Assembly: GCA_003216575.1 (NCBI GenBank)
Contig: QCIR01000004.1
Location: 1 to 64,000 of the forward strand
Origin: Prochlorococcus sp. AG-402-M23
Lineage (GTDB): Bacteria > Cyanobacteriota > Cyanobacteriia > PCC-6307 > Cyanobiaceae
DNA: 64,000 nt
Direction of reading: 5' to 3'
Position 1 is the stretch's first letter. The number at the start of each line of letters is the position of its first letter. The translations under genes were made by a program, and so were the position numbers. Below the pieces are notes generated by a model. The model ran no database searches and was not told where the DNA came from. It saw only the letters and a program-made list of their open reading frames with translations. Below are positions 29,232 to 32,607 of this stretch, piece by piece.

Positions 29232-29426
29232 CTAAGTAAAAGTAAATTTATCTATAACTAGTATTTCCTGTTCTGAGAAATCGCTTGCTGATATACAATT
29301 TATCCACTCTTTATACTCTTGAGCAATAGCTAATTGATCACCTGGGCTGACTTCTACTGTTCTTTTTAAGATATGGGATAAGCCTTTAACTAATATATCT
29401 TCTATACTGTTTTGATCTTCTTTCAT
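29232..29426 (-). CDS. Small QExxEWI-motif protein, copy 2
   Basis: A 64-residue protein with an N-terminal helix (NSIEDILVKGLSHILKR), then IAQEYKEWINCIS (33-45) and an acidic SASDFSEQEILVI tail. The motif and arrangement match the small proteins at 26153-26353 and 48841-49071. It is less AT-rich than its surroundings, which supports a coding role. The function is unknown. Confidence 0.7.
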   Translation of the reverse strand: MKEDQNSIEDILVKGLSHILKRTVEVSPGDQLAIAQEYKEWINCISASDFSEQEILVIDKFTFT

Positions 29427-29534: not shown

Positions 29535-29876
29535 TCATGCAGCGTCGATTTCATCATTTTTATCTATAGAGGGAATGAATCCTAATTCTTCTATCGTTTC
29601 AACTAATGAGAGCTTTATATCTTCTTTATGTGATGCTATATTAATAGAAATTGGTTTTTTTAATTTATCATTATTATTTAGCCCTGTAATAGATTTTTTA
29701 ATATCTAAATTCTTGTTTGTAGATCTAATAAAGTTATTAAGATATTTAATATTAATCAAGTATAATGAGAATGTAATTCCAATTAGAACTAAAAAAATAT
29801 TATGAACAAAAAAATATGAGAAAACTAAAGTCGCAGATAAATATTCTATAATATTTATTATTTTAGTTTTTTTCAT
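29535..29876 (-). CDS. Last gene of the five-gene cassette: membrane protein
   Basis: A 113-residue protein with two membrane helices close together (about 10-26 and 28-44), followed by a polar region with an acidic end (SIDKNDEIDAA). It starts 2 bases after the preceding stop, so it is very likely cotranslated with the genes upstream. The domain is not recognised. Confidence 0.65.
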   Translation of the reverse strand: MKKTKIINIIEYLSATLVFSYFFVHNIFLVLIGITFSLYLINIKYLNNFIRSTNKNLDIKKSITGLNNNDKLKKPISINIASHKEDIKLSLVETIEELGFIPSIDKNDEIDAA

Positions 29877-29878
29877 AA

Positions 29879-30199
29879 TTAGGCAACATCCTGTTGATTT
29901 CTTTTGTTTTGTCTTTCTAATAATGTCAGGTCATAGGATGATTGGATTTGATTATTGTAGTCTAATTCGTCAATAAACCTTGATACGTGTTTTTTGCTTT
30001 GCATCCACTTATTCCTTATTGTTTTAGGTATATCAGGTAGAGTAACTTCTTTTTTATCGAGAGACCTTACATATCTTTTCCTTTGCCCACTATCCATTGT
30101 CGAATTGTAGTTGTCATGAGTTTGAGTGAGATCCTTTCGACGCTCTTTTGACTCAGTAATTGCCATTAATTCTGAAAGACTTCTAATGAATGGAATCAT
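29879..30199 (-). CDS. Cassette gene 4: basic soluble protein
   Basis: A 106-residue strongly charged, mostly helical protein (KERRKDLTQTHDNYNSTMDS, then DKKEVTLPDIPKTIRNKWMQ). Its ATG overlaps the preceding gene's TGA by four bases (ATGA at 30196-30199), a signature of translational coupling. No domain is recognised. Confidence 0.65.
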   Translation of the reverse strand: MIPFIRSLSELMAITESKERRKDLTQTHDNYNSTMDSGQRKRYVRSLDKKEVTLPDIPKTIRNKWMQSKKHVSRFIDELDYNNQIQSSYDLTLLERQNKRNQQDVA

Positions 30200-30357
30200 G
30201 CTGCATACCTCTCTTTTTTGTTTTTATTTGAATTGGTATCTTTGCTTTTATCTTTTTTATAGGCATTTATATAGTGAACATCATAGGATCCCAACCCTTC
30301 TTTCTTCGGATTGTATAAATGGATGAATCCATTTCTAGACTTAAAATTCTTATTCAT
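30196..30357 (-). CDS. Cassette gene 3: short basic protein
   Basis: A 53-residue Lys/Asn-rich protein from the ATG at 30357 (MNKNFKSRNGFIHLYNPKKE). A longer frame from 30393 would overlap the preceding gene, so the shorter form fits better. It starts 4 bases after that gene's stop and shares four bases with the next gene. The function is unknown. Confidence 0.55.
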   Translation of the reverse strand: MNKNFKSRNGFIHLYNPKKEGLGSYDVHYINAYKKDKSKDTNSNKNKKERYAA

Positions 30358-30361
30358 AGTC

Positions 30362-30535
30362 TCAAGCTCCTCTCTTTTGATTTTTTCTATCAAACATAGG
30401 GTCCATATCGCAAATGAAATTGGGCTTGTATTTCTCTAATAACCTCCTCGTGATCCCCTGGTCTATCGCCTGGATATCCTCAGATTCAAATTTTTGTTGA
30501 TCAGAAATTCTAGAACTTAAGTTGGAGATTTTCAT
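30362..30535 (-). CDS. Cassette gene 2: short protein
   Basis: A 57-residue protein from the ATG at 30535 (MKISNLSSRISDQQKFESED), with RRLLEKYKPNFICDMDPMFD near the C-terminus. A longer frame from 30670 would run through the end of the 206-residue gene and carries a different composition, so I prefer the shorter start. No domain is recognised. Confidence 0.55.
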   Translation of the reverse strand: MKISNLSSRISDQQKFESEDIQAIDQGITRRLLEKYKPNFICDMDPMFDRKNQKRGA

Positions 30536-30572
30536 TTTAAATAATAATGTGAGTAACTTTTTAGAACGAGTA

Positions 30573-31193
30573 TTAGACAAGAGAGTCGATTTTTTCTCTA
30601 TTCGATAGTAACTTACTAAGCTTCTTGTTTTCTTCTTGAAGATTGTTAATGATTTTTTTATATGTTTCAATCTTTTCTTTCAGGGATTTTATCTTTTCGC
30701 TTTCAGTCTTTTTTGAAGATTTATTCCTCTTTTTCTTGTGCCCTTTTACTAAGTCTCTTACGGCAGCTTCTGTCATCCTCTCGCCGTTCCCTACCGCCTC
30801 GAAAACCTTTTGCCGCTCCTTGTCGGTCACCCCTTTGCTTCCCATTAGGGCTAGTGATCTAGGCGTCAATGACGCAAGTAGATTATCGTTTATATCAGAT
30901 CTGCCTAGCCAGTTAGTGTATGCGCTTACAAGGTCTACGGCAAACCTTTCGGAGCAATTGATTGCGCCAGACTTCAAAAAGGCTCTCCAGTTCCCAGGCT
31001 TGATGTTGCTCTTTATGTCCGAGAGGTTGGCCGCAACAGCTCTGAGCGACTGGCCAACACAACTCAGCTCCTCGTTGATTTCGACGACCGATTCTTTTAC
31101 GTACTCCACCTGAGCTGGCACGAGCCCCTTCGTGACTTCGCTGTTAAGTGGAATACTTGCTAAGTCGACCACCTCTGTAGGCGATAATTCCAT
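30573..31193 (-). CDS. Cassette gene 1: DNA-binding-like protein with coiled coil, unusual GC
   Basis: A 206-residue protein. Residues about 30-110 (GQSLRAVAANLSDIKSNIK, then PGNWRAFLKSGAINCSERFA) resemble DUF3102-type or plasmid/phage partition-like helical domains, in which a GNWxxFL...I segment is usual; this is pattern recognition only. From about 145 a basic patch (KGHKKKRNKSSKK) and a long heptad coiled coil (165-206) follow. The 5' two thirds, 30781-31140, count about 52% GC by hand, while the coiled-coil end is as AT-rich as the neighbours. That suggests recent transfer or a fusion of two parts. Confidence 0.75.
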   Translation of the reverse strand: MELSPTEVVDLASIPLNSEVTKGLVPAQVEYVKESVVEINEELSCVGQSLRAVAANLSDIKSNIKPGNWRAFLKSGAINCSERFAVDLVSAYTNWLGRSDINDNLLASLTPRSLALMGSKGVTDKERQKVFEAVGNGERMTEAAVRDLVKGHKKKRNKSSKKTESEKIKSLKEKIETYKKIINNLQEENKKLSKLLSNREKIDSLV

Positions 31194-31734
31194 GGGTCTA
31201 GCTTGTTACGTTTTAAATATACGGCTTGTGACGAATCGGAACAATGGGTACTGATGTACTAGGCCTGTTCTTGTTATTCTTATATTACTTTTTTGGTATG
31301 AATAGCTGTATTTATGCCTTTTTTTATCAGATCGATAGAAAAGTTGTTAATATTGAAATTGTTTTGGAGGGCAGCAGCCCTAGTATGGCTAATTCGCCTT
31401 CTGAAGATAGATAACTTATATGTTTTATTACTATAGACTTGATACTAGTGTGAAGAATAGACAATGAATAGTAAAAGAAAATATAAGTTAGCTGTTTTTT
31501 GATTTTTACTATATTGCACGACCCACCTAGGCTGATTTGCTAGGTATTAATACTTATATGTTCTACTCTTTGTTCTCATCTAAATACTCAGCTTTAAATC
31601 AACACTAGTTGATTTAGAATTTAATTAATTTCTCGGCATGGCTATTTAAAAATTAGAAGTATCTAACCTACTTTTTACTTTTAAGCCCCGCCAGGTTAAG
31701 CCAATCACCTCTATTTCCAGTTATATCAACGCTA
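31194..31734. other. Spacer between the cassette and glyQ
   Basis: No gene is recognised in 541 bases. Small stem-loops occur: AGGGC/GCCCT around AGCA at 31368-31381, and ACCTAG/CTAGGT at 31525-31545. Neither is followed by a T-run. The glyQ promoter and leader must be at the right end, where a GC-richer CCCCGCCAGG stretch precedes the ATG. A small RNA is possible but not shown. Confidence 0.5.
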
Positions 31735-32607
31735 ATGTATTTCCAGGACATAGTTTCGCGCCTTAATATTTTCTGGAGTAAAAAAGGCTGCTTGTTACTT
31801 CAGCCATATGATCTAGAGAAAGGTGCGGGTACGATGAGCCCTCATTCTTTCTTAAGGGCTATTGGACCGGAGCCTTGGGCAGTAGCTTATCCAGAGCCTT
31901 GCAGGAGACCGACTGATGGCAGGTATGGCGATAATCCAAATAGAGCTCAACATTATTTTCAGTATCAAGTTCTTATCAAGCCTTCTCTTGAGGGAATACA
32001 AGAAATTTATTTATCCTCGCTTGAAGCTTTAGGTATTTCAGCGAAAGATCATGACATAAGGTTCGTAGAGGATAATTGGGAATCGCCAACCTTAGGAGCC
32101 TGGGGAGTTGGATGGGAGGTTTGGCTTGATGGGATGGAAGTGACTCAATTTACTTATTTCCAACAATGCGGAGGTCTTGATTGCAAACCTGTCTCGATTG
32201 AAATTACTTATGGTTTGGAAAGATTGGCAATTTACTTACAGAATGTTGAAAGCATTTGGGATCTTTCTTGGAATGAAAATAAGAAATACGGTGATATCTG
32301 GCTTCCTTTTGAAAAAGGTCAATGTAAATATAATTTTGAAGAATCTAATCCAGGTAACTTACGGAAACTTTTTGATATTTACGAGGAAGAGGCTGATCAA
32401 TTAGCCATTAAAAAACTTCCTGTACCTTCTCTTGACTATGTTCTAAAGTGTAGTCATGCTTTTAATTTATTAGAGGCAAGAGGAGTTATTTCTGTTACTG
32501 AGAGAACTAAGATTATTGCAAGAATTCGATCATTGGCTCGTAAAGTTGCTGAATCTTGGTTAGAAGAAAGACAACTCCTTGGGTTTCCTCTTTGTGAATA
32601 TAAATAA
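31735..32607 (+). CDS. glyQ: Glycyl-tRNA synthetase alpha subunit
   Basis: Catalytic subunit of the bacterial alpha2beta2 glycyl-tRNA synthetase. The 290 residues contain all hallmarks: [20 protein letters not shown] near the N-terminus, then [52 protein letters not shown] and [13 protein letters not shown]. The beta subunit glyS is not in the window, which is normal for cyanobacteria where the genes are separate. Confidence 0.98.

Follow-up and report, generated by a model that had tools for sequence, protein, structure and literature searches.

Five genes, g1 to g5, lie on the minus strand of the 64-kb stretch of DNA analysed here (hereafter the window), and their coordinates agree with the gaps of 37, 4, -4 and 2 nt given in an earlier sequence-only reading. 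The first gene, g1 (30573–31193), encodes a putative 206-aa regulator, with a predicted ParB-type HTH domain at residues ~45–151 and a C-terminal coiled coil at residues 164–205. It is followed by g2 (30362–30535; 57 aa), which is poorly conserved and usually ends in -A; g3 (30196–30357; 53 aa), which ends in -AA or -VA in 28/28 genomes; and g4 (29879–30199; 106 aa), a basic protein with a QRKRY motif that ends in -[VILA]A in 28/28. In the last gene, g5 (29535–29876; 113 aa), the hydrophobic stretch at about residues 13–45 fits two membrane helices by hydropathy, in agreement with the proposal that the cassette ends with a membrane protein. The 64-aa gene o29232 (29232–29426, minus strand), which is homologous to element-borne genes, is located 108 nt downstream of the cassette. 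The spacing of 4, -4 and 2 nt is nearly constant and is seen in almost all relatives, indicating that the small frames are real genes, with g2 the least conserved of the five and unrecognised in several of the 28 relatives.

None of the five genes has a Pfam match above threshold, and Rfam has no match at the cassette locus. The cassette genes contain no tyrosine recombinase, and no tRNA gene lies at the cassette. Pfam, NCBIfam and PADLOC revealed no known defence effector or toxin in it; the PADLOC matches are weak and partial, and the best of them (E 9e-4) covers just a portion of a long profile.

The C-termini of the small proteins resemble degradation tags. The tmRNA tag of the host ends in -APVAA, and 12% of the ORFs in the comparison set end in A; the stop-start overlap accounts for only part of the -A tail pattern. 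Tags of the ssrA type act as degradation signals in known bacteria. Given these signals and the ssrA-like -AA/-VA tails, a short life is reasonable to expect, and the four small co-transcribed proteins are probably turned over rapidly.

The g1 protein and its promoter

The AF2 model of g1 has a pLDDT of 84.7 and is confident for residues 6–151 and the C-terminal helix. Upon comparison of residues 45–151 with DNA-binding domains (VIA-align), the Z-scores were 7.7 for Caulobacter ParB, 7.6 for Spo0J-parS and 5.5 for SopB; values below 8 are moderate for helical proteins and can arise from common helical arrangements. A second model represents a mobile paralog that shares 32% identity with g1; its nine best chains all belong to the ParB family (Z from 7.3 to 5.6), and the next chain scores 4.6. 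The agreement between the two models and the listed family thus supports the ParB-type assignment despite Z-scores below 8. We therefore predict that g1 combines a ParB-type HTH fold with a coiled coil, and that it binds DNA, as would suit the DNA-binding-like leader of plasmid or phage type, with a coiled coil, that had been suspected from the sequence.

Foldseek alone found no significant match to g1 in the PDB. Among viral models, the closest in fold is a DUF3102 protein from a marine virus (E 3.8e-6), and two members of the g1 family also have a weak sequence match to DUF3102 (PF11300). The family thus resembles these phage proteins in predicted fold, but differs in that its sequence score stays under the Pfam cut-off. 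The searches with g1 against sequenced phages, and with g1 and a paralog against plasmids, found no relative, and the IMG/VR search with g1 found no confirmed one. The weak coiled-coil matches (SesA, RmuC, tape measure and LmuB) were set aside as compositional.

How might g1 be controlled? On the minus strand upstream of the gene, a putative -35 element, TTGTTC (31239–31244), is conserved and lies 17 nt from a putative -10 element, TATATT (31216–31221). A candidate operator dyad, TTGTTCCGATTCGTCACAA (31226–31244), forms an imperfect inverted repeat over the -35 element and the spacer to TATATT. Just upstream lies a LexA/SOS-like box, AGTACATCAGTACC (31247–31260), at -67 to -54 from the g1 start. 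Among 28 genomes, the conservation upstream of g1, about 0.5 further out, increases to 0.87 at -70 and then to 0.98 over the operator, which is 92–98% conserved.

The operator is present as a single copy in 7/7 genomes searched, with up to 3 mismatches allowed. Such a single occurrence per genome suggests a regulator that acts locally, probably on its own gene. The g1 homologs in Prochlorococcus and Synechococcus are preceded by a related palindrome (GGACGA-N-TCGTCC or variants of it): 19 of its 29 matches in 422 kb are located at a g1 homolog, a zone making up about 1% of the sequence. The half-sites vary by clade, with TGACGA in two loci near the core g1 (L032 and L165) and GAACGA in L168, L173 and L174.

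The box AGTACATCAGTACC occupies the same position in 28/28 relatives and is the top-scoring LexA-like site of the 64 kb. Its score is 15.7, as compared with 17.0–20.5 for known sites; many relatives score lower (median 12), and in many the right half has GTAT in place of GTAC. Of the 26 g1 homologs outside the core, 9 have LexA-like boxes, where 0.26 would be expected. The consensus published for cyanobacterial LexA is RGTACNNNDGTWCB (PMC3091678), which the box fits, an event expected by chance 0.2 times per window. The g1 promoter thereby resembles those of the cyanobacterial LexA regulon, but the passages of PMC3091678 consulted do not mention the g1 operon. Judging from these promoter sequences, self-repression by g1 and SOS control of the operon are both likely.

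Conservation and composition across the genus

The host is a Prochlorococcus, as indicated by glyQ, a porin gene, psbD/psbC and the named relatives. The cassette is present beside glyQ, in the same place, in 28/28 same-genus assemblies in which g1 is assembled, and g1 orthologs with 80–93% identity occur in 27 of the 40 same-genus relatives, including all of the finished genomes. The gene order is the same in every case: as far as the contigs extend, glyQ and the porin gene lie on one side, and o29232, o28185, o27835, DUF2358 and AhpC on the other. Among the 13 relatives missing g1, two (G024 and G037) have a contig end at the locus, and the glyQ side was not found in most of the others; in the G016 draft, a stretch of other sequence, 1.5 kb or longer, is located upstream of glyQ. 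The pairwise protein distances of g1 track those of the neighbours (r = 0.53 for glyQ, 0.72 for the TPR gene and 0.76 for o27294), and those of g4 (r = 0.87).

The 5′ part of g1 is GC-rich, as had been counted by hand: the GC content of 30781–31140 is 51.9%, against 34.6% for the whole window. This is the GC-richest 360-nt stretch in the 64 kb, where only 0.016% of such stretches reach that value, and the whole-gene GC declines along the cassette from 0.44 in g1 to 0.22 in g5. The same part of g1 has 46–51% GC in 28/28 genomes. At the 4-fold sites of g1 codons 1–80, GC is about 0.5–0.6, as compared with 0.15–0.22 in control genes. The 4-fold sites of g1 differ in 50–65% of comparisons and are thus near saturation. 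As such sites still have about 50% GC, the GC level of g1 is evidently maintained, and is not a gradually disappearing trace of import. Nearly all of the g1 codon families are shifted to GC endings, and the neighbour-preferred codons GTT, ACT and GGT are reduced, making selection for strong expression unlikely as the cause. In most g1 homologs GC3 is near 0.44, while the values for the host genes lie between 0.24 and 0.72 (slope 0.32); three homologs beside tRNA-Ala are the exception, being as AT-rich as their hosts. An overlapping gene was also considered as the source of the GC richness and rejected, as none of the other frames has a conserved long ORF that clearly exceeds synonymous shuffles.

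The sequence-only reading had taken the GC richness of g1 as a mark of recent transfer, to which the shift of its codon use towards GC endings, in nearly all amino acids, would also be suited. This claim of recency is refuted by the presence of the cassette across the genus: the locus is syntenic in all 28 cases, the 4-fold sites are near saturation, and the divergence of g1 largely follows that of its neighbours. Moreover, the GC level of g1 is found in every species of the genus. The cassette is core and vertically inherited, while its composition is not homogeneous. With only weak PADLOC matches in addition, it is extremely improbable that the locus is a recently transferred mobile or defence cassette. 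The case of g1 shows that GC-rich composition does not always signal recent transfer.

Mobile relatives and the glyQ attachment site

Homologs of g1 occur in Prochlorococcus and Synechococcus-type genomes of the same family, and the core g1 is limited to one genus. Tyrosine recombinases adjoin the homologs in several loci (L032, L041, L050, L166, L177 and L179), so integrases are indeed neighbours of g1 relatives. Some element loci also carry a T7-like single-subunit RNA polymerase, about 27% identical to the cyanopodovirus enzymes (L050:4435–6876, L166:3783–6440 and L179:9658–11644, the last split into two frames). The core g1 groups with L032 and L161 with a support of 1.0, and with L165 added the support is 0.965. 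L032 is a recombinase-bearing element of another genus and is not beside glyQ. In addition, g4 shows weak similarity (E 0.0013–0.009) to the small membrane protein encoded after the g1 homologs of mobile elements. The gene o29232, syntenic in relatives, matches two element loci (E 1.9e-31 for L179 and 1.3e-19 for L041), and may belong to the same relic as the cassette. Most relatives have a second, diverged copy of the o29232 family (38–44%) near o25775, and such copies are also found in mobile elements.

The cassette had been likened to mobile or defence cassettes. The mobile part of this comparison stands with regard to origin, as several relatives of g1 head integrative elements, while the defence part finds nothing beyond the weak partial matches in PADLOC. 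Several g1 relatives adjoin tRNA-Ala. At L164:9083–11474, a duplicated tRNA-Arg(tct) flanks 2.2 kb with a g1 homolog, possibly a very small element. Elsewhere, at G000:C39:1033 (L153), a LexA-like palindrome, AGTACACATGTACT, has two neighbours: a cysteine-rich gene of 106 aa and a gene related to the 2OG-Fe(II) oxygenase cargo.

Tycheposons, reportedly described by Hackl et al. in 2023, are said to be integrative elements of Prochlorococcus with a divergent tyrosine recombinase. They are mentioned in PMC10872708 and PMC10187409. The g1 relatives resemble them: several belong to integrative elements of these hosts that encode a tyrosine recombinase, several adjoin tRNA-Ala, and the one in L164 is flanked by a duplicated tRNA-Arg. 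In contrast, a recombinase is missing from the core cassette, the insertion site of the L050 element is a protein gene, glyQ, rather than a tRNA, and a T7-like RNA polymerase is present in some g1-bearing elements.

Where do elements insert near the cassette? The 5′ end of glyQ (31735–31752, plus strand), 0.54 kb from g1, is an attachment site (attB), which is unoccupied in the window and is duplicated at the insert edges in relatives. In about a dozen relatives, the glyQ–g1 interval is enlarged by 0.9–8.9 kb. In these enlarged loci, a copy of the glyQ upstream region and first 12–19 nt is found at the place where an empty site has the start of glyQ, about 0.5 kb from g1; the inserts are therefore located at the 5′ end of glyQ and provide it with a new start (L034, L037, L039, L045, L049, L050, L058–L060, L063 and L064). 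In several inserts, the new start has the form GGAGG...GTG, and L034 has two consecutive inserts. The insert in L050 is a 9-kb element with a g1 homolog (g1′), a two-helix membrane gene, the RNA polymerase and the recombinase; its g1′ takes the same position as the core g1 and points away from glyQ, as the core g1 does. Many of the glyQ inserts hold nothing but cargo, for example a 2OG-Fe(II) oxygenase-like gene. In the L039 insert, an 80-aa ORF (682–924 of the glyQ–g1 interval) is apparently a decaying fragment of the L050-type recombinase. A second glyQ-like copy, which would mark the far end of a relic, was not found in the 64-kb window, and we thus infer the entry through the glyQ site from position and orientation.

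Origin and role of the cassette

We propose that the cassette is the fixed control module of an ancient integrative element beside glyQ, an SOS-induced, self-repressed relic, and we place the probability of this reading at about two in three. The relic is probably domesticated. The element would have entered beside glyQ before the genus diversified, subsequently lost its recombinase, and become fixed. In the proposed circuit, g1 would dimerise via its coiled coil and repress its own promoter at the inverted repeat between -35 and -10, while LexA, bound to the box adjacent to the operator on its upstream side, would add a second level of repression. DNA damage would remove LexA and allow the operon to fire, and the climbing level of g1 would then shut it again. 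The four small co-transcribed proteins with ssrA-like tails, one of them presumably membrane-bound, would probably be short-lived.

Three other readings share parts of this evidence. The box upstream of g1 could be a second operator of g1, or the site of another regulator, as the GTAT in its right half and the scores below those of known LexA sites in many relatives might suggest; with the box in the window fitting the consensus published in PMC3091678 and outscoring every other LexA-like site there, we consider this unlikely. With its predicted HTH fold, a C-terminal helix for self-association and a palindromic site, g1 also resembles ParB, KorB and SopB, and might be a centromere-binding protein for partition or maintenance instead of a repressor. 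However, Pfam detects no N-terminal ParB CTPase domain in g1, where only a short tail and one long helix precede residue 45; no ParA partner is encoded in the five genes or the neighbouring ORFs scanned; and the single operator per genome lies inside a promoter, all of which renders a partition role very improbable. Alternatively, an ordinary host SOS operon may have come first, with mobile elements capturing copies of it. A core, vertical, conserved cassette with a LexA-like promoter would fit such an origin, but the core g1 is found in only one genus and branches among homologs of which several are element-borne, and the diversity of the family is much greater away from the core locus, so that we regard this order of events as quite unlikely. 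We thus prefer the relic of an integrative element.

The cassette is conserved in its promoter and its predicted DNA-binding protein, and is therefore under selection. What could it do at present? Our leading guess, a tentative one, is that it controls related elements that still insert at glyQ. In a wider form, held just as loosely, a family of ParB-fold repressors with a palindromic operator and an SOS switch may control the integrative elements of marine picocyanobacteria that carry T7-like RNA polymerases, with one lineage, domesticated beside glyQ, now controlling or blocking its incoming relatives.

Given the small number of regulators and known prophages in Prochlorococcus, the way in which its genomic islands are activated is a question of interest. 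The LexA-like box, together with the g1 operator, provides a concrete candidate for such a switch. In addition, g1 is a marker gene for elements with a tyrosine recombinase and a T7-like RNA polymerase, and glyQ is a protein-gene attachment site where the pile-up of elements can be watched.
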